From contig JALUUO010000068.1 in assembly GCA_027021335.1 (NCBI GenBank), positions 1-64,000 of the forward strand: a stretch of 64,000 nt of DNA, given 5' to 3'. A program made the position numbers and the translations under genes. Shown in pieces: positions 53,245-63,421 of this stretch. Position 1 is the first letter of the stretch, and the number at the start of each line of letters is the position of its first letter. This DNA comes from Nitrospirota bacterium (lineage in GTDB: Bacteria > Nitrospirota > Thermodesulfovibrionia > SZUA-242). The notes under the pieces were generated by a model, which searched no databases, was not told the DNA's origin, and was given only the letters and a program-made list of their open reading frames with translations.

Positions 53245-54801
53245 ATGCCAAGACTTGATGTGAGGGTAAAGACGGAATTACCTGCAAAAGCGATCTGCAA
53301 TAAAAAAACTTCAAGCGTGATAATATCAGAGTTTAGTTTAAGCGGAGCTTTAGTAAATGGTTTGAATAGTAAGCATACAGGAATTATTACTATCAAACCT
53401 GAGTTTGGTGCTAATAAAAATATAGCTTTAACAGGAGAGATTATCAGGAAAAATAATGGCACAACAATTATTGAGTTTTACCACCCGGATAGATACGCCG
53501 GAGTAAGAGCCTGGCAATACATAAAACAACATCTTTCTCTTACGGAAGAGTGCCCTTATTGCAATAATAAAAATAGTCTTGGAGCAGATCATTGTGGAAG
53601 CTGTGGTTGGCTGCTTGATTTTAATGATATAGATTATCTGGATAAACATAATAGAGAGATTTTTGTACCAAAAATTCTTAGGCGTGCTTGCAGCCTTGAT
53701 CCGGACCAGATGCATACAGTTATAAACTTCATGGATACTGAACTGCGTAAAAAAAGGATGGAATTACCTGGTATAACTTGCCCTTACGGCATAGAGCACG
53801 AACTGCGCGGCAGCTATTGTTTTGAATCTATCCTAGGACATCATCCAAAGATGATAGCTATTTTGAAACTCATTGCCCAGGTTGCAGACACTGCTGCTAC
53901 CGTGCTGATTTACGGGGAAAGCGGCACCGGCAAAGAGCTTATTGCGCGAGCGCTGCATTACAACAGCAGGCGCAAAAACGCCATTTTTGCCACCATTAAC
54001 TGTGGTGCTCTGCCGGAAAACTTACTGGATACCGAGCTTTTCGGCCATGTCCGGGGTGCTTTTACAGGCGCTATCAAAGATAAAGCCGGATGGTTTGAAC
54101 ACGCTGATAAAGGCACTATTTTTCTTGACGAAATAAGTGAAATGCCTGCAGCGTTACAGGTTAAACTTCTTAGAATTCTGCAAACAGGGGAGTACAGCCG
54201 TGTGGGCAGCACGAAAATCAACCGCTGTGATGTACGTATTCTGGCAGCTACAAACAGGAATCTGAAAAACCTTGTAAGGGAAGGAACCTTTAGAGAAGAT
54301 TTGTACTATAGATTAAATGTGCTTGATATTGAACTTCCACCTCTTAGAGAAAGAAAGTGTGATATCCCGTTGTTAATACAACATCTGCTTAAAATTTTCA
54401 GCGCTAAGTATGCTAAGCCTCACCTGCGTCTTACCAAAGATGCAGAAGCACTGATTTTGGCTTATGACTTTCCTGGAAATATTCGTGAATTAGAAAATAT
54501 AATTCAAAGAGCCGTACTTCTGGCGGAGAGCAGTATTATTGAAACGCGTCATCTTCCGGCAGATATCCGTGATAAGAGTGTAACTTCTTTGCAGAAAGAA
54601 AATAAATTATCATCTTTCAAATTGGCCAAACAGCAGGCGGTAGAACAATTCGAGCGCAAATATATTAGTGACTGCCTGAAAACCACCAGTGGAAACATCA
54701 GCCGCGCCGCCTTTGCCGCCGGAATCAACGTGAAGAATTTTTATGAGAAGATGACTAAGTACGGCATTGATCCGCATTCCTTCAAGAATTTTTCAAAATA
54801 A
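53245..54801 (+). CDS. Sigma-54-dependent transcriptional activator with PilZ-like N-terminus and zinc ribbon
   Basis: RLDVR...EFSLSGALV (RxxxR / E-x-S-x-x-G PilZ-like); CPYCNNKNSLGADHCGSCG; GESGTGKELIARALH Walker A; GAFTGAIKDKAGWFEHADKGTIFLDE; Fis-type HTH at C-terminus (TTSGNISRAAFAAGINVKNFYEKM). Confidence 0.92.
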   Translation: MPRLDVRVKTELPAKAICNKKTSSVIISEFSLSGALVNGLNSKHTGIITIKPEFGANKNIALTGEIIRKNNGTTIIEFYHPDRYAGVRAWQYIKQHLSLTEECPYCNNKNSLGADHCGSCGWLLDFNDIDYLDKHNREIFVPKILRRACSLDPDQMHTVINFMDTELRKKRMELPGITCPYGIEHELRGSYCFESILGHHPKMIAILKLIAQVADTAATVLIYGESGTGKELIARALHYNSRRKNAIFATINCGALPENLLDTELFGHVRGAFTGAIKDKAGWFEHADKGTIFLDEISEMPAALQVKLLRILQTGEYSRVGSTKINRCDVRILAATNRNLKNLVREGTFREDLYYRLNVLDIELPPLRERKCDIPLLIQHLLKIFSAKYAKPHLRLTKDAEALILAYDFPGNIRELENIIQRAVLLAESSIIETRHLPADIRDKSVTSLQKENKLSSFKLAKQQAVEQFERKYISDCLKTTSGNISRAAFAAGINVKNFYEKMTKYGIDPHSFKNFSK

Positions 54802-54806
54802 CACCA

Positions 54807-54849
54807 CAATAAACCAGGGTGCTTTTGCCAAAACCCTGGTAAAAACACC
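54807..54849 (+). repeat. Repeated 43-bp element, copy 1; contains dyad GGTGCTTTTGCCA-N6-TGGTAAAAACACC (54818-54849)
   Basis: 41/43 identical to 63171-63213; half-sites are near reverse complements (11/13). Confidence 0.85.
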
Positions 54850-54917: not shown

Positions 54918-54933
54918 TGGCATAAAGATTGCT
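54918..54933 (+). promoter_or_regulatory. Sigma-54 -24/-12 promoter
   Basis: TGGCATAAAGATTGCT matches TGGCAYRNNNNTTGCW exactly. Confidence 0.85.
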
Positions 54934-54976
54934 TATTCAATAACACACAAAGCAACGAAGAAAACAAGGCCATGTC

Positions 54977-55198
54977 ATGAACAAACACTGCGTATTGGTA
55001 TGCGGACCTAGTGTCGCTAATGAAAAGAAACTGGTTGTTGGAGTTCAAAAAAGTACGATGATACTAAAAAACAAAAACAGCAGCCAGATTGAATCGATAA
55101 TAAAGCAGTCGCTCTCATTCACTAGTGGTAGCAGAATAACATTGCCACAAGTAAAAACACCTAACCACAAACCAAGTTTCAGGAGAAGATTACTATGA
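54977..55198 (+). CDS. Small hypothetical protein (73 aa), possibly translationally coupled to the subtilase
   Basis: Starts just after the sigma-54 promoter; ATGA overlap with the next gene; composition unremarkable. Confidence 0.4.
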   Translation: MNKHCVLVCGPSVANEKKLVVGVQKSTMILKNKNSSQIESIIKQSLSFTSGSRITLPQVKTPNHKPSFRRRLL

Positions 55199-57918
55199 AA
55201 AACTTTCCGTTAGAACTCAGACATGGTTCAGGTACCATGATGATGCTTGATCAAACTCGTCTATTGCTTTTCTTTAAAGAAATACAAGAACGTAAGAAGG
55301 TTGAAACTCTTATAAAAAAAATTGGCTTTGTTCTTGAGGATGAGAATGATACAAAGCAGGAAAACGTGTCACGCTCACTCGAGGTTATTAACCATACAGA
55401 TAAACGCTTTTGGATTCGGTCACAACATGGGGACCCCATAGATCAGAAGCGTTTGAGCATGATCGAAAATAAACTTGAATCAACCATAGATTTGATTGCT
55501 CCAGTTTACCGACTAATGAGTACTAAAGAACGCGGGGGTCTTCTGTGTCCATTGCCAAATGTATTGTTAATTAAGACAACCACACAACTTGATAAAAAAG
55601 CAGAAAAAGATCTATCTAATATGTTTGGACAGTACGGTCTGAAAGAAGTCCTGGCAAAATCCAAATACCTAGGCGACTACCGTTACTGTATTATCAACAA
55701 TATCAAAAAGCAGCAGAATGCCTATCAGCTTAAGGAAGTTCTACTTAAAAAGGAGAAAGAGTTCATACGCGAAGCACGTTTTGAGAACATGCCAATGCTG
55801 GTTCCCATCGCTGTTGTGCCAAACGACACCCTATTCCCACAACAATGGAATATGACACAAATTCAAGCGGGAGGGCCAGGAACTACCGGTTGGGACATTT
55901 CTACGGGGGTTGCTACCGTAGTGGTATGCGTGTTAGATGAAGGCTGTGATTTAACTCATCCGGATTTACAGTTTTCAGGGCCGGGCATAAACCTAGGTAC
56001 AATGATGCCGGATGGATCGCCAACAGGTCCTCATGGTACGGCTTGTGCCGGCATCGTGGCAGGTAGATACAATAACGAGATTGGCGTGGCGGGAGTAGCT
56101 GGAAATTGCCAAATCATGCCCCTTGCATTTCAAAACTGGACAGAAACAGAAGTAGCAGCAGGTATCAACTATGCCGCAGATAATGGGGCTCAAGTTATAA
56201 GTATGAGTTTTGGCTCGAATAGTTGGGACCACGCAATAATTGATCCTGCTATTCAGCATGCGTTCAATACGAATGTGGTAATGTGTGTGGCAACACACAA
56301 TTATAACAGCAGCGTAACCTATCCGGCTACTAATCCTTTGGTCATGGCTTGTGGAGCTTCCGACCAAGTGGATAATCGTAAATCACCAACCAGCCCGGAT
56401 GGTGAATGTTGGGGATCAGATTTCGGACCTGAGATGTCTGTGGTTGCTCCAGGCGTTCTCTGTTATAGCACCGACATTCAAGGCAATGGTGGTTACAACG
56501 ACAACAACGGAGGACCAAAAAACAACTGGGCTTGTGTAAATTATCCAGTCTGTGGAGATACTGCCGGTGATTATATTTTCATCTTCGATGGAACTTCAGC
56601 GGCGACACCCCACGTAGCAGGTTTAGCTGCTTTACTTCTGAGTCAATACCCGACACTGACAAATGTTCAGGTTCGCAACATCATCGAACGAACTGCGGAA
56701 AAGGTAGGTACCATAGCTTATGCCGAAACCCCAGGCTATCCCAACGGCACGTGGAATCAGGATATGGGCTATGGTCGTATCAATGTGTTACAGGCATTGG
56801 ATTTCGCTGATGTAATGATCAAGGACTGGTCAGGTGATACTGGTATTGAACCCTCAACTCCACCGAGCGGTAATTTTTGGACATTCTCTGATATTGTTGT
56901 TCGCATCACAGACGATAACGTTTTTGTTCCAGACGACCCCAGTAAATCTAGAAATGTTGAACGTGGGCAGACGAACTACCTGTATATCCGTGTAACAAAT
57001 AATGGTCAAAGAGAAGCCCGCAACGTAGTTGTCAATGCCCGTATCACACCCTACGTAGGCTTACAATTTGTCTATCCAGCTGACTGGACAACAATAGATG
57101 CTACTCACGTCAGCCCGATACCTGTAAGCGCTACTTTCGCGTCAATACCATCGGGCGGTTCCGTCATTGCTAAATTTACTATTTCATCAGCACAAGTGGA
57201 AGACTTGTGGGGGTGGATCAGCGGCATGCACTGGCACCCATGCCTGTTGGCGGAAGTAAATGCCGACAATGATTATGCTTTCGCTACTGCAAACATGACA
57301 GGGGGTAATCTTACCTTAAGTCGGAATAACTTAGCTCAGCGCAACTTATCGGTAATTGATGTTTTGGCAGACGCAACTGCATCTTTTCCCTTCCTTGCAG
57401 GCAACTTACATAATGCCCAGCGTTTCATGGAAATAATAGTAAATAGAAGTCAGCTTCCTAAAGATATGCGACTCCTACTTTCGATTGACGAAGACGGAAA
57501 GGCATTCCCCCTTATTGATTTGACACCACCTGCCTTTACCACTAAAGACAGTTGTCATACCGGAACTGTTTTTTTGGAACGAACAAGGATTGAAACCACA
57601 TTGGGTTGTTGCCGAGGTGTGCTGACTTTAGAAAAAGGATCACGATTTGATTGCCTGCCGCCAACTAAAATTAGAATGTTGGAAATTATTAAAGGAGGAA
57701 TAGTCATCCTTCAGGATGATAAACGATTTGTAGAGATTAGAGAAGACATCGCAATCATTCGCATGGAAAAACAACCTGATCAGCTTGTTCCTTTAGCTTT
57801 ACAAACATCAATTCCTGCCAACGCTCAAAAAGGACAACAATTTATGATTAGTGTAGCGCAGCGAAATGAGAAGGAAGAAATAGTCGGTGGTGCATCCGTC
57901 ATTTACTTTATACGGTGA
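55195..57918 (+). CDS. S8-family subtilisin-like serine protease, 907 aa
   Basis: NDTLFPQQWNMTQIQA; Asp region VVVCVLDEGCDLTHPDL; His region GPHGTACAGIVAG; Ser region FDGTSAATPHVAGLAALLLSQYP; CARDB-like C-terminal segment. Confidence 0.93.
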   Translation: MKNFPLELRHGSGTMMMLDQTRLLLFFKEIQERKKVETLIKKIGFVLEDENDTKQENVSRSLEVINHTDKRFWIRSQHGDPIDQKRLSMIENKLESTIDLIAPVYRLMSTKERGGLLCPLPNVLLIKTTTQLDKKAEKDLSNMFGQYGLKEVLAKSKYLGDYRYCIINNIKKQQNAYQLKEVLLKKEKEFIREARFENMPMLVPIAVVPNDTLFPQQWNMTQIQAGGPGTTGWDISTGVATVVVCVLDEGCDLTHPDLQFSGPGINLGTMMPDGSPTGPHGTACAGIVAGRYNNEIGVAGVAGNCQIMPLAFQNWTETEVAAGINYAADNGAQVISMSFGSNSWDHAIIDPAIQHAFNTNVVMCVATHNYNSSVTYPATNPLVMACGASDQVDNRKSPTSPDGECWGSDFGPEMSVVAPGVLCYSTDIQGNGGYNDNNGGPKNNWACVNYPVCGDTAGDYIFIFDGTSAATPHVAGLAALLLSQYPTLTNVQVRNIIERTAEKVGTIAYAETPGYPNGTWNQDMGYGRINVLQALDFADVMIKDWSGDTGIEPSTPPSGNFWTFSDIVVRITDDNVFVPDDPSKSRNVERGQTNYLYIRVTNNGQREARNVVVNARITPYVGLQFVYPADWTTIDATHVSPIPVSATFASIPSGGSVIAKFTISSAQVEDLWGWISGMHWHPCLLAEVNADNDYAFATANMTGGNLTLSRNNLAQRNLSVIDVLADATASFPFLAGNLHNAQRFMEIIVNRSQLPKDMRLLLSIDEDGKAFPLIDLTPPAFTTKDSCHTGTVFLERTRIETTLGCCRGVLTLEKGSRFDCLPPTKIRMLEIIKGGIVILQDDKRFVEIREDIAIIRMEKQPDQLVPLALQTSIPANAQKGQQFMISVAQRNEKEEIVGGASVIYFIR

Positions 57919-58062: not shown

Positions 58063-61000
58063 ATGAAAAAAGAAATCGAGGACATTGAGATCAGTCTCGG
58101 CGAACCGAAGGTCAACTCCAACAGGAAGGCGGGGACAAAAGACGTCAACATCCCGATGGAGATAGAATCGCTAGAGCCCGGCACAAAAGTGGAGGTGCGC
58201 TACAGGGTAAATAGTGGGGAGGTACAAACAGTCACCGCTCGACTGGTCAAAAAAGCGGAAAAGCACAGCCGTTTCACGGCAAAATTGCCAGGTTTGAATG
58301 TCGGTGATATTGTCGAGTACTCGGCAATGCCAGTACGGCACGAACATGAATTGCCGACGGGTGAGGAGTTTTCCAACTTCGAAGCCTTTCGAATTACCGA
58401 GAAAGGATTCGAGCGCCTTGCTGCCTCGGAACTGGAAAGCGGCCTCCTGGCCAGAAGGCCACCGACGAACAGATATACTTTTCAACAACGTCTGAAGCCG
58501 GTACAGCTCATTTTCCAGCCTACGAGCAAGGATGAACCGCCAGTCGAAGAAAACGATTCCATCGAACTCGAACTCGGCGTCGAGGCGTTTTCCGACTTTG
58601 TGAAAGAGCGCCAGCTCGCAGTGACGCAGGTACACAAAAGTCTCACACAGATCAAGACGGACCTGACAAAGTTTTTTCCAACGGTCAGGGAGCTTTTCCC
58701 AGAAACCATCACGGGTGAGATCCTGAAGCCAGACGGAACCCCGGCTGAAAGAGTATCGGTCGAAGCGCAAGAGCCCGAATACACATCCAGCGAAAACGTC
58801 GCCAATATCGCCTGGCCAACGCCAAAAGCCATCACCGACGAACGCGGCGTTTTCACTCTGCAAATGCCACGAGTGCCGATTTCCGCAAAGGGACTTACAT
58901 TTCGCGTTCGCGGACGCAGCAATTCTACTAGTATCGTTTTGGAAAGAAGTGACTTTTTCGGGACGGGTGGACGACTGGGGCTTTTGATCCTTGACAGGGA
59001 GCTGGCTCCGATGCCGACAAGCATCGTTTCTCAGCTCAAAGATATTGTGCCCTCTGGAGCAGAAGACTCAGAAGATAATCCGGAGGACTTTGCGGAACAA
59101 ACGCCACCGATGATCCTCGGCGATGAGACAGATTGCGCGCAGGTCTTTCATTCGAACAGCGGTGTTATCGACAGGCATCGTTACTCAATTATGTTCCGAC
59201 TCGTTGATCCGCTTATCAGCCAGGCGCAGCCGACTGTCCGCTTTCCGATCCAATCAGATGAACTCAAGTTTATGTCTCTCTCGTTAACGACGCAGCGCAA
59301 CAGTCCGGCATTCGAGCGTGCGATCAACCGAGCGTTGCTTGCAAACGGTAAGTTGCGCTACGTTGATCGGGTTCCGGTGTCGCGTCCCATTGATGTTACG
59401 GACTTTTTCACCAACATTGCTGAAAATCCAGACGAAGTCCCGAAGGCAGCAAGCCTCGGACTTGGCTATGTCGTCAAAATGCACACCACGTGGGCACCAA
59501 AAGGCTTGTCGCTGGGCGATATGCTCTACGCATTGCCGCTGGCGCCAGGCGAAGAGCAGCGCGTCGCCATATTCGAACAGGAGCAACAACTGGCAGTGCG
59601 GGAATCGGAGCGTCTCGGTATTGCCGACGAGCAGATTCTGAGTGAAGTCCGCGATTCCTCGACCGAAGCCGTTTTTCAGTCGGCATTGCGTGAAGCGGCA
59701 AGCGGCGGCAGCAGCTTCCACACGGAAGCCGGCTCGCGGGGTGTTGGGATTGCTGGCGGTATCGGCGGATTTATTGGCGGGCTGTTATTTAGCGCTGGGG
59801 CTGCTGCCAGTTACGGCGGTTCGTCATCCAGCGGCAGCTCAAATAGCTGGCAGAAGGGGAGTCGGGATTTTGTTTCTTCTGCAACACAAGATTTTCATTC
59901 TATATTATCACGCGTCGCCAGGACGCGCCGTCAGGTGAACCGCTCCAGCGTCCGCCTTGCAACCGCCAGCGACCGCGAAGAGATCACGACGAAGCTCATC
60001 GCCAACCACAACCACAACCACGCACTAACTATGCAGTACTGGGAGGTGTTGCGGCACTTTTCGGTGAACACGAAGGTCGATGACGTGCAACTCGTCTGCT
60101 TCGTCCCGCTCGATATTGTTCAGTTCCTGCCAAATGGGCAGCCGTTGACGCTGCCGAGTGTTGAAATCACCAGAGATTTTTTGCTTCATCGCTATCAAAT
60201 GTTGATTCTGTACAACGATGCGCTTGCGCACCGCCTGCGCAGAAAGCGGAAATATTTTCACGGACTCAAGCTCTTGCGGGACTTCACTGCCAACCCGGCC
60301 ATGGGTATCGAAACCTCAAGCGGTTTAGCGGAGGATATTGTTGAAATTTTGGTCGAAGGTACTTTCATGCCATTCGAAGAGGTCTTTATCTCCATGTACA
60401 GCGATACTGGCAGACGCCTTGGAACCACCAGGTTAAGCCCCGTTGGTTCTGTAGAAGACGTTCCAACTGGCGATGACGGATTTGTTTCCTCGGAGGAATT
60501 ACTCCAGTATCTTAACAACCGTCGTCTCAACGAGGGAGGGTCGACGCATGAACGTACAGGCGCAATTAGATTGCCGCGGCACATCTCCCGCAGTAATGTT
60601 ACGCGTTTTGAGCTGACACGTCGTTTTCAATCCTTTACCTACCGTTTGAAGCCGCAGCCGCTCCCTGGTTTGTTAGGCAGTCTTGGTGACAGCATCATCG
60701 GCAACATAAATGACATTCTGAATTCCCAAAACCGTACCGTGACACTGAGTCCGACTAATATTGAAAGGGAAATCGGTGGGCCGATGGTGACTACAATAAA
60801 AGCCGACATTAAGAATGAAGGCGGCACATCTCTCATCACGTTCGTTGATGACCGAACATCAGAGCGGATGGGAACCCGTCTCTTGATCCCATCGCGTGAC
60901 ATTCCACCAGCGTTAAGCGAGGCTGATATTTTACATATTGAATCGGCATTCCAGCATATTGTCAGCAATACGGTGTCTTATTCGAAAACGATCTGGCAGT

Positions 61001-62049
61001 CGTTAACACCGGAAGAACGGGCCATCCTTCTCGAACGCTTTACCGTCGGTGTGCCTGAAGGCGGTATCGAAGACGCTACACAGGAAGTGCCGCTACTCAA
61101 TTGCGTCACCAACGAAGTTCTCGGCTTCTACGGCAACGCGATGATCATGCCGTTCCACATTCCGCCCGATGTCGCTAGTCAAATGGAGGTGACAACTCGT
61201 GATGTGCAGGAGGCACTACTCACTTTCCACCGTGAAGGGTTTACTCAAAATCGTTCGACAATTACCCTGCCGACGCAAGGTATGCTCGGCGAGACAGTTC
61301 TTGGTAACTGCAATTCCAGCGAAAAGATCGATATCACCCGCTTCTGGAACTGGAAAGACTCACCGCATGATAAGGCAGCACCTGCAGAAACAGCACCAGG
61401 TTTCCGCGGTCAAAGCCTGATAGGAAGCACCGGCGCCCAAGCTGCGAGCGTACTGAAACCGCCGCAACCGGTTAACTTGCTGAACGTCAATACTGCAGAC
61501 GGCAGTGGAGAGGCGAAATCACTGGCTTCGTCGCTCATCGACAAAGCGATTACAACAGGTACTTTTGGCGACCTCACTGGGAAAGACAAACTGGCGGCAC
61601 TGCAAACCGAGACACTGAAGACCGCCGAGAGCGCTCGTGATAAAGCGTTATCGGCAGCCAAAGGAATGGCCGAAAAAGTCATTGATAAACTCCCGGACGT
61701 TATGAAAACCAAAGCCGGTATCGATGAAAAGCAGGAAAAGAAACAGGAAGAGATAAAGGAGAAGCAGAAAAAGGCGAAGGAAAAGAAAAAATCCGATGGC
61801 ATCGCAAAGCTGAAAGAAGGAGCTAAAGGTTTCACCCTTCTGGCAGGGAGTCATCATCCTGACGAAGAAAAGGCGACCAACGAGGCAAAAAAAATTGTCA
61901 ATGATATTTTCGGTGATGAACTACCCGGACGTTCAGCCCTCGCAACGCTGCTCGAAACCTTCTCTATCGCAGAAGGTGACTCGGACAAGGTGAAGCTCGG
62001 CAAAACGACCATCCTGAAGGCGCTTGGGTTGCCTGTGCCGACGTCATAA
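58063..62049 (+). CDS. Large protein of unknown function (1328 aa) with CarboxypepD_reg-like domain and Gly-rich hydrophobic segment
   Basis: Long uninterrupted ORF with RBS aggaggg; ITGEILKPDGTPAERVSVEAQEPE...DERGVFTLQMP; GVGIAGGIGGFIGGLLFSAGAAASYGG; NHNHNHALTMQYWEVLRHF; Lys/Glu-rich coil near C-terminus. Confidence 0.85.
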   Translation: MKKEIEDIEISLGEPKVNSNRKAGTKDVNIPMEIESLEPGTKVEVRYRVNSGEVQTVTARLVKKAEKHSRFTAKLPGLNVGDIVEYSAMPVRHEHELPTGEEFSNFEAFRITEKGFERLAASELESGLLARRPPTNRYTFQQRLKPVQLIFQPTSKDEPPVEENDSIELELGVEAFSDFVKERQLAVTQVHKSLTQIKTDLTKFFPTVRELFPETITGEILKPDGTPAERVSVEAQEPEYTSSENVANIAWPTPKAITDERGVFTLQMPRVPISAKGLTFRVRGRSNSTSIVLERSDFFGTGGRLGLLILDRELAPMPTSIVSQLKDIVPSGAEDSEDNPEDFAEQTPPMILGDETDCAQVFHSNSGVIDRHRYSIMFRLVDPLISQAQPTVRFPIQSDELKFMSLSLTTQRNSPAFERAINRALLANGKLRYVDRVPVSRPIDVTDFFTNIAENPDEVPKAASLGLGYVVKMHTTWAPKGLSLGDMLYALPLAPGEEQRVAIFEQEQQLAVRESERLGIADEQILSEVRDSSTEAVFQSALREAASGGSSFHTEAGSRGVGIAGGIGGFIGGLLFSAGAAASYGGSSSSGSSNSWQKGSRDFVSSATQDFHSILSRVARTRRQVNRSSVRLATASDREEITTKLIANHNHNHALTMQYWEVLRHFSVNTKVDDVQLVCFVPLDIVQFLPNGQPLTLPSVEITRDFLLHRYQMLILYNDALAHRLRRKRKYFHGLKLLRDFTANPAMGIETSSGLAEDIVEILVEGTFMPFEEVFISMYSDTGRRLGTTRLSPVGSVEDVPTGDDGFVSSEELLQYLNNRRLNEGGSTHERTGAIRLPRHISRSNVTRFELTRRFQSFTYRLKPQPLPGLLGSLGDSIIGNINDILNSQNRTVTLSPTNIEREIGGPMVTTIKADIKNEGGTSLITFVDDRTSERMGTRLLIPSRDIPPALSEADILHIESAFQHIVSNTVSYSKTIWQSLTPEERAILLERFTVGVPEGGIEDATQEVPLLNCVTNEVLGFYGNAMIMPFHIPPDVASQMEVTTRDVQEALLTFHREGFTQNRSTITLPTQGMLGETVLGNCNSSEKIDITRFWNWKDSPHDKAAPAETAPGFRGQSLIGSTGAQAASVLKPPQPVNLLNVNTADGSGEAKSLASSLIDKAITTGTFGDLTGKDKLAALQTETLKTAESARDKALSAAKGMAEKVIDKLPDVMKTKAGIDEKQEKKQEEIKEKQKKAKEKKKSDGIAKLKEGAKGFTLLAGSHHPDEEKATNEAKKIVNDIFGDELPGRSALATLLETFSIAEGDSDKVKLGKTTILKALGLPVPTS

Positions 62050-62113: not shown

Positions 62114-63109
62114 ATGACTGAAAAAACCTTACCGCAAAAAGAAGAAGGAGTAGATATTGAAGATCAGGTAATCGCGACACTGCTCGGAGTTTTGAAAGAT
62201 TCCACCTCACCGGAATTCATGCGCACGCAGCAGATTCTGGCGCAACGCTTGGCACTCACCGGCAGCGTTATTCCGTCGCGGATCCCGGAGCCAAAGAACA
62301 TCACCGAAATTGGCGGCTATCTAAACCTGCTCGAAAAACTCGATGAAACCGAACTACGGTCACAGACCCTCGCCTCCATTCTTGGTGTCGCTGGCACGAA
62401 TCCACCTGCTGGATTTATGCCGACAGAGCTAGTGCTTTTCTTTGCCGCCCGCAAGAACGACCGGCCGGAAGTGACGCAACAGGCGACTATTCCGGTGCAA
62501 TTCACCATGCGCAGCGATTTCGCCGCTGCCTTTGACACTGCATTGAAGGAAATCCACGAGCGCGGCTGCACACTGCCGATTCTTTCCTCAGTACAGTCGC
62601 GATCCCAAATCGCGGATGCCGCCAATCCGACGAACATCGATTTTCTCAATGCCATCGGCCGCACACTCGAGCTGATGCCAACGACTGCTCTTATCGATCC
62701 TGACACCGACGCCCTCGTGCTTGCTCGACTGGCAGCTGGGGGAGATCAGCAAGTTGTCGCCCGCCAAATCGACGCTACCGCTCCGAAAGCAGGGAACGTC
62801 ACAACCGAAAGCTGGATCGCCTGGCAGTGCGACGCCACATCCTGCACCGAAACCACTGCGGACCGTACCTATCTTCTCCTCACCCCAATTCTGAACACGG
62901 CCGGCTGGTACCAATTTGCTGTACCGGATGTTCCCATGAGTCTCAGTGTATCCGGCAACTGGTTTCGCTGGACAAACATCACAGGGCTTATGCCGAACGT
63001 CACCCAATTTGGAGATGAGCTACGGTTGTTGTATACGGAAGCGGAAATTGTGGCGTCTCCGCTACGGGAACATTTGGACAAAGTCTGGGACGGGAGTACG
63101 TTTCAGTAA
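62114..63109 (+). CDS. Hypothetical protein (331 aa)
   Basis: 64 bp after the 1328-aa gene, RBS aaggaga; similar GC-rich composition. Confidence 0.8.
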   Translation: MTEKTLPQKEEGVDIEDQVIATLLGVLKDSTSPEFMRTQQILAQRLALTGSVIPSRIPEPKNITEIGGYLNLLEKLDETELRSQTLASILGVAGTNPPAGFMPTELVLFFAARKNDRPEVTQQATIPVQFTMRSDFAAAFDTALKEIHERGCTLPILSSVQSRSQIADAANPTNIDFLNAIGRTLELMPTTALIDPDTDALVLARLAAGGDQQVVARQIDATAPKAGNVTTESWIAWQCDATSCTETTADRTYLLLTPILNTAGWYQFAVPDVPMSLSVSGNWFRWTNITGLMPNVTQFGDELRLLYTEAEIVASPLREHLDKVWDGSTFQ

Positions 63110-63170: not shown

Positions 63171-63213
63171 CAATAAACCAGGGTGCTTTTGCCAAAACTT
63201 TGGTAAAAACACC
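63171..63213 (+). repeat. Repeated 43-bp element, copy 2; dyad at 63182-63213
   Basis: CAATAAACCAGGGTGCTTTTGCCAAAACTTTGGTAAAAACACC; two mismatches to copy 1 at 54807. Confidence 0.85.
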
Positions 63214-63328: not shown

Positions 63329-63344
63329 TGGTATAAAAACTGCT
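63329..63344 (+). promoter_or_regulatory. Sigma-54 -24/-12 promoter
   Basis: TGGTATAAAAACTGCT; correct GG-to-GC spacing; shares ACTCATGG.ATAAA.A.TGCTTATTCAA with the promoter at 54918. Confidence 0.78.
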
Positions 63345-63421
63345 TATTCAAAGTTATACAGAATAACGAAAAGACTGAAACACTAACACTGAAACAGAGT
63401 ATTTAAAATCAAGGAGGGATT

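Follow-up and report, generated by a model that had tools for sequence, protein, structure and literature searches.

The P0001 gene and its product

The window analyzed here, a 64,000-nucleotide stretch of the genome of a Nitrospirota bacterium, encodes at positions 58063-62049 of the forward strand a protein of 1328 amino acids (aa), denoted P0001, which lies between a gene for a peptidase of the S8 subtilase family and a gene for a 331-aa partner protein. The open reading frame, correctly delimited in an original prediction made from the sequence, starts with ATG and is preceded by a strong ribosome-binding site, AAGGAGGG. Full-length relatives, 37-39% identical to P0001 across ~87% of its length, were found in Arenicellales, Rhodobiaceae, Loktanella, Ruegeria and Novosphingobium, and because of them we regard P0001 as a real gene. 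The designation of the protein as an orphan is refuted, P0001 having both close and distant relatives. The gene and its features are the following (window coordinates, strand, basis of assignment).

58063..62049, +, core/scaffold protein P0001, 1328 aa, ATG start (open reading frame, translation, relatives, alignment)
58150..58392, +, N-terminal beta-like module, residues ~30-110, missing in close relatives (alignment)
58705..58932, +, beta module, residues 215-290, carboxypeptidase-regulatory-like by eye (conserved in the window clade; no Pfam match)
59449..60132, +, core block 1, residues 463-690 (common to members in bacteria and an archaeon)
59740..59820, +, glycine-zipper-like tip GVGIAGGIGGFIGGLLFSAGAAASYGG, residues 560-586 (sequence)
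60004..60021, +, NxNHxH signature, residues 648-653 (alignment of 11 members)
60910..61392, +, core block 2, residues 950-1110 (alignment)
61615..61857, +, Lys/Glu-rich C-terminal coil, residues ~1185-1265, at the position of the enzyme modules of distant members (sequence, tail comparison)

Several traits that had been read from P0001 beforehand were confirmed: a Gly-rich stretch (residues 560-586) followed by a Ser-rich linker, a charged coil rich in Lys, Glu and Gln near the C-terminus, and the lack of a signal peptide, the N-terminus not being hydrophobic. The predicted NHNHNH run is present at residues 649-654, but the conserved signature is N-x-N-H-x-H-A-x-T, which overlaps that run only in part; Asn648 and Asn650 are invariant, and His651 and His653 nearly invariant, among the 11 aligned members. 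A carboxypeptidase regulatory domain could not be substantiated, since no Pfam match was obtained even at E<=1, although residues 215-290 resemble one by eye. The statement that no overall family is recognised held: the core has no match in Pfam, NCBIfam, PHROGs, PADLOC or PDB, and P0001 as a whole yielded no convincing match to any family or chain of these collections. Its top Pfam matches, CBM_56 (0.048) and DUF6894 (0.06), were both below the cut-off; a phage tail-tip protein returned by phmmer against PDB (E 0.25) was weak and was taken as a chance match. Pfam, NCBIfam and PADLOC recognised no C-terminal toxin domain, the protein ending in the charged coil and small helices. PDB profile searches with the core alignment and with the partner alignment found nothing.

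The G+C content at third codon positions (GC3) is 0.57 for P0001, 0.59 for the partner gene, 0.38 for the S8 gene and 0.55 for the nearby leuC. As leuC has so similar a value, composition alone is no proof of horizontal transfer of P0001 and its partner, and we did not accept that argument.

Relatives of P0001 and a superfamily with exchangeable ends

A search of bacterial and archaeal genomes yielded five window-type relatives at 37-38% identity over residues 167-1326, from Arenicellales, Rhodobiaceae, Loktanella and two Ruegeria. Plasmid records added window-type relatives in Ruegeria and Novosphingobium, and further genome searches added those at loci L038 (G224, same phylum as the window) and L067 (G756). 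None of the 100 genomes nearest to the window's own held a window-type protein (0/100), and the distribution is therefore patchy. The window-type clade has no recognised enzyme tail.

The core is also common, at 20-22% identity, to large proteins of Streptomyces, Nostoc, the archaeon Haladaptatus, Psychrobacter and Polaromonas, and it occurs in Embleya and Caballeronia. Further core members came from the window's own phylum (14/396 genomes) and from two proteobacterial classes (3/337 and 12/321), each rate counting the query genome. Core block 1 comprises 'W..G.SLG.L.YSLPLAPGE', a helix, a Gly/Ser tip, a second helix and 'NxNHxHALTxxYxEVLR'; core block 2 comprises '..GN..' and ends in 'LPTxGxxxEAxLGxCNxxExIDxTRFWxWxxSP'. 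The two helical stretches of block 1 and their Gly/Ser tip probably form a helical hairpin, as propensity averages and weak structural models suggest. No signal peptide was evident in the superfamily members examined.

Outside the core, the composition of the proteins changes at both ends. The front carries helix-hairpin-helix modules in L039 (6.6e-16) and L072 (5.7e-9), and beta modules as well. The tail of L040 is a papain-like Peptidase_C70/AvrRpt2 domain (4.4e-15), and a GHSRGG hydrolase motif was also found at this locus. L009 ends in DUF2272 (2.6e-15); a review of papain-like enzymes (PMC10318531) assigns this family to a group with peptidoglycan amidases, among them the type VI secretion system (T6SS) effector Tse1. 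The tail of L008 is endolysin-like (4e-4) with a GRGxIQLT stretch, and that of L010 OmpA-like (1.5e-5, just under the cut-off). HExxH motifs are present in the tails of L039, L069 and L071 (all three with a possible Met-turn) and in that of L072 (with a reprolysin-like motif). When 13 tails were compared all against all by BLAST, only those of L039, L069 and L071 were related across most of their length; the other match, between L039 and L040, covered 39 residues. A constant part with changing C-terminal domains was found for the superfamily, not for P0001 itself. To judge from these alignments, the superfamily and the swapping of its ends are real.

Other members vary the pattern. L040 (1826-12093) encodes a tandem pair of family members with unlike tails, one alpha/beta-hydrolase-like and the other an AvrRpt2-like papain domain. 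Residues 998-1168, the tail of L012 (5979-9587), are 34% identical to an unannotated stretch without the core on a Rhizobium leguminosarum plasmid (NZ_CP050086.1), a match by which this tail is a mobile module. Two very divergent proteins of 877-994 aa, L042 (6976-9960) and L043 (7881-10514), match weakly (E about 1e-7); by eye, their C-termini recall the soluble region of GspG, the pseudopilin of type II secretion. Core block 1 also occurs on its own in small proteins of 430-470 aa that carry CCP and cysteine motifs at either end (L075 5558-6919, L076 7563-8855, L077 8290-9696, L078 6631-7956 and L079 2655-4040); in L075 and L077 the gene that follows is conserved, and its product resembles a von Willebrand factor A-type protein.

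Partner, peptidase and sigma-54 elements

The genes and elements around P0001 are listed below.

53245..54801, +, sigma-54-dependent activator, 518 aa, with AAA+ sigma-54 interaction domain and Fis-type helix-turn-helix (PF00158 1.8e-69, HTH_8 3.9e-8)
54818..54849, +, palindrome GGTGCTTTTGCC-N8-GGTAAAAACACC, 32 nt, candidate upstream activator site 1 (genome pattern scan)
54918..54934, +, putative sigma-54-type -24/-12 promoter TGGCAT-N5-TTGCTT (GG-N10-GC) of the S8-scaffold-partner cassette (pattern and spacing read from sequence)
54977..55117, +, degenerate copy of a receiver-like gene, located downstream of the first sigma-54 promoter and upstream of the S8 gene (translation agrees with the beginning of the intact copy)
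55195..57918, +, S8 subtilase-family peptidase, 907 aa, catalytic domain residues 241-527, no obvious signal peptide (Peptidase_S8 1.2e-41)
62114..63109, +, partner protein, 331 aa, no described family (homologue after the core gene in relatives)
63182..63213, +, palindrome copy 2, candidate upstream activator site 2 (genome pattern scan)
63329..63345, +, second putative sigma-54-type promoter TGGTAT-N5-CTGCTT, ahead of the next unit from 63422 onward (pattern; 66-nt repeat, 73% identical to the first)

In all window-type loci examined, the core gene is directly followed by a homologue of the partner gene, with identities of 43-46% in L001-L005 and L067 and of 38-40% in Novosphingobium and L038. 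Among 72,556 plasmids, the partner was present in exactly four, the same four records that hold a window-type core. In the phylum, it was found in 2/396 genomes, both with a window-type core, and in 0/12 of the other genomes carrying more distant cores. The core tree fits a single origin of the partner-bearing members with modest support (58/84). Judged from gene order and co-occurrence, the partner is obligate in the window-type clade. The protein is conserved, belongs to no known family, and its conservation is higher than usual for immunity genes. Absence of any conserved neighbour, which the original prediction had named as grounds for its own dismissal, was not observed: the conserved association is that with this downstream gene.

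The product of the upstream gene has a subtilase domain, as indicated by the Pfam score and by PDB subtilisins that align over residues 208-537, and its HGT and GTSAATPH motifs are intact. For this gene, PADLOC returned no more than its generic model for subtilases and a weak match to IetS, and in one distant member of the superfamily a weak MotB-type match. A neprosin-family peptidase takes the same position directly upstream of the core in L038 (Pfam 2.5e-55) and in Novosphingobium L014 (record annotation). A peptidase of changing class thus adjoins the core in 3/10 window-type loci, S8 in the window and neprosin in two, a count that leaves out the Novosphingobium US6-1 and Ruegeria AD91A plasmids. 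The gene lists of L001-L005 and L067 show no recognised peptidase adjoining the core, nor does the annotation of Ruegeria THAF33 show one next door. The co-occurrence with S8 proteases that had been suggested for checking is accordingly not conserved, an adjoining S8 gene being found only in the window. By eye, no signal peptide is evident in the S8 protein or in the Novosphingobium neprosin. The S8 gene product and the neprosins of Novosphingobium and L038 clearly belong to their families by Pfam or annotation, but they are neighbours of P0001, not P0001 itself, and neither class is universal in the clade.

The 32-nt palindrome occurs at exactly two sites in the 2.7 Mb genome at <=3 mismatches, whereas the reversed-pattern control gave 0. 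Both copies lie within a 43-nt direct repeat, 95% identical (54807-54849 and 63171-63213), 69 nt (first) and 115 nt (second) upstream of the putative promoters. Two -24/-12 type elements were counted in the window against 0.06 expected, an expectation that is optimistic because the pattern was written after both sites had been seen. By pattern and spacing, two promoter/palindrome pairs exist. The position of the activator gene (53245-54801) beside them makes its product a candidate regulator of the cassette that may bind the palindromes; the two units probably constitute one sigma-54 regulon of this activator, as position and pattern suggest.

The second unit (L081, contig 63422-68101) codes for two secreted proteins, one propeller-like and the other with an SWCGPATG motif, and for a Peptidase_C13 lipoprotein. 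The SWCGPATG protein is possibly a C39-like cysteine protease, with no Pfam match for it; a theme of extracellular proteases is common to this unit and the S8 gene. An intact small receiver-like gene lies downstream beyond the window (L081, contig 68156-68524). After the protease unit, contig 68841-71155 (L081) holds three consecutive genes for ~240-260 aa proteins that belong to no described family; two of these are paralogues with 25% identity.

A possible carrier for hydrolytic effectors

The best-supported reading, to which we assign a probability of about 0.4, is that the P0001-type core serves hydrolytic effectors as a carrier or presentation platform. Peptidase, scaffold (P0001) and partner would form a three-gene cassette. 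In the constant core, a beta segment would open into the two helical stretches with their Gly/Ser tip, followed by the NxNHxH block and then the 'LPTxG...RFWxW' block; helix-hairpin-helix or beta modules are exchanged in front of it, and hydrolase or binding modules behind. The core would most likely carry or present hydrolytic effectors that are used outside the producing cell. In the window clade, a peptidase gene of its own (S8 or neprosin) would apparently supply the effector in trans, and the partner would be a second, obligate subunit; in the window's genome, the neighbouring sigma-54 activator would switch on expression of the cassette. Of these points, export, carrier function and the peptidase as cargo are inferred. 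The toxin-like role suggested in the original prediction remains plausible, as an effector-like role, because distant members carry exchangeable hydrolase C-termini; the pore that accompanied it has gained no such support.

A number of observations weigh against this reading. No export route was identified, P0001 has no signal peptide or known export domain, and no immunity gene was recognised. In most window-type loci no known peptidase adjoins the core, and the peptidase may therefore be unrelated or a mere processing enzyme. Some of the exchanged ends are not enzymes (OmpA-like, a Tectonin insert, GspG-like by eye). A type VI sheath is encoded in the window's genome (G000) but in only 2/19 other hosts, and a phage-type sheath in 9/19. 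AlphaFold2 models, built on a six-row alignment that was too shallow, reached a predicted local distance difference test (pLDDT) score of 33.7 for residues 300-1125 and 38.9 for residues 440-760; as these predictions are not confident, the mechanism is one that we infer.

The foremost alternative holds that the peptidase, rather than being cargo, processes the scaffold so as to mature or release it. P0001 and its partner would then be the functional product, such as an extracellular structural complex, and the cis peptidases elsewhere would serve the same purpose. That two unrelated peptidase classes fill the same upstream slot speaks for it, as does the frequency of autoprocessing peptidases in polymorphic toxins (PMC3482391), and relatives without an adjacent peptidase could employ another protease. 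The cis enzymes, however, form the very C-terminal end, where an effector and not a processing domain is usually found, and the endolysin-like and DUF2272 ends are no processing enzymes for a carrier; we regard this alternative as possible but rather unlikely. Less probable is that P0001 is cargo of a contractile injection system (CIS), either T6SS or extracellular CIS (eCIS), with the core as loading domain. The T6SS sheath proteins of the window's genome and the phage-type sheaths of other hosts would suit it, and the phyletic spread (Euryarchaeota, actinobacteria, cyanobacteria, Nitrospirae, proteobacteria) overlaps the list of Photorhabdus virulence cassette (PVC)-type systems (PMC3482391). 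Against this explanation, none of the loci inspected has a sheath or baseplate gene as a neighbour, a T6SS sheath occurs in only 2/19 other hosts and a phage-type sheath in 9/19, and G000 lacks PF17482, which is present in 9/19 other hosts but never adjacent to the core. Several hosts have neither sheath type, some of these genomes being incomplete, and the sheath matches may be prophages. No VgrG, PAAR or Hcp genes are adjacent, and the members scanned gave no PAAR, VgrG or DUF4157 match.

We think it improbable, too, that the Gly-rich segment inserts into membranes and makes P0001 a pore former. The segment is flanked by two helical stretches; its hydrophobicity on the Kyte-Doolittle scale is moderate in P0001 (1.61) and strong in L074 (1.99), where it forms a double Gly zipper. 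Across members, however, the best 19-residue Kyte-Doolittle mean at the tip ranges from 0.22 to 1.99, with values of 0.2-0.9 in many, including the window-clade proteins of Novosphingobium (0.49) and L067 (0.72); a membrane-spanning role is therefore not a conserved property. What is conserved is the position of the tip, where the length changes of block 1 are concentrated, and its Gly/Ser/Ala content, which is high in nearly all members. On this variable hydropathy we rejected a glycine-zipper pore as the conserved function. The least credible of these explanations, already largely refuted, is that P0001 is a structural protein of a phage or prophage, for instance a tape-measure or tail-tip protein. 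Coils, a Gly-rich hydrophobic stretch and cell-wall modules recall tape-measure proteins in style, and one unverified 'Bacteriophage sp.' scaffold matches; but three scans of 2.9 million viral contigs found no relatives, which weakens it, P0001 has no PHROG, and the loci are not prophages, the core residing on plasmids and chromosomes beside ordinary genes.

Returning to the carrier reading, the closest parallels are polymorphic toxin and effector systems (Zhang et al. 2012, PMC3482391), which likewise combine a constant front with exchangeable C-terminal modules, papain-like and peptidoglycan-targeting ones among them, and are patchily distributed and often plasmid-borne. Unlike in those systems, the constant part of the superfamily matches no described trafficking domain; the members scanned have no signal peptide, WXG, PAAR, two-partner secretion (TPS) or RHS element; no immunity gene was recognised; and the window clade has a partner protein in place of a C-terminal enzyme. 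Cargo of PVC/eCIS with the DUF4157 metallopeptidase (PMC3482391) shares the overlapping phyletic range, the absence of a Sec signal and, in part, metallopeptidase-like motifs, but the HExxH of the superfamily is C-terminal rather than N-terminal, there are no adjacent CIS genes, and DUF4157 was not matched. Papain-like effector domains (Peptidase_C70/AvrRpt2 and DUF2272/Tse1-like) are C-terminal modules of distant members and absent from P0001. Among the papers available to us, a literature search around neprosin, DUF2272 and polymorphic toxins found none that describes the family. A constant part with exchangeable effector ends is a known principle; the core, its partner and the arrangement with a peptidase in trans have, as far as we could find, not been described.

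A stronger proposal, that the core is a previously unknown chassis that exports or presents enzymes in archaea and bacteria independently of contractile systems, with proteases, amidases and lysozymes in cis, or in trans with the partner in the window clade, seems unlikely to us in this full form. Taken together, a scattered, unnamed family whose constant core is joined to enzyme or binding modules that can be exchanged suggests a carrier, not described before, for protein- or cell-wall-cutting enzymes. The superfamily extends over several bacterial phyla and a haloarchaeon, with a core that has no Pfam, NCBIfam, PHROGs or PDB entry, with effector-like C-terminal enzymes and, in one clade, with an obligate partner. 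If the carrier reading is true, it would represent an undescribed way of deploying hydrolases against other cells or substrates, and with the partner and the in-trans peptidases the idea can be tested directly in marine bacteria that are cultivable (such as Ruegeria and Novosphingobium).

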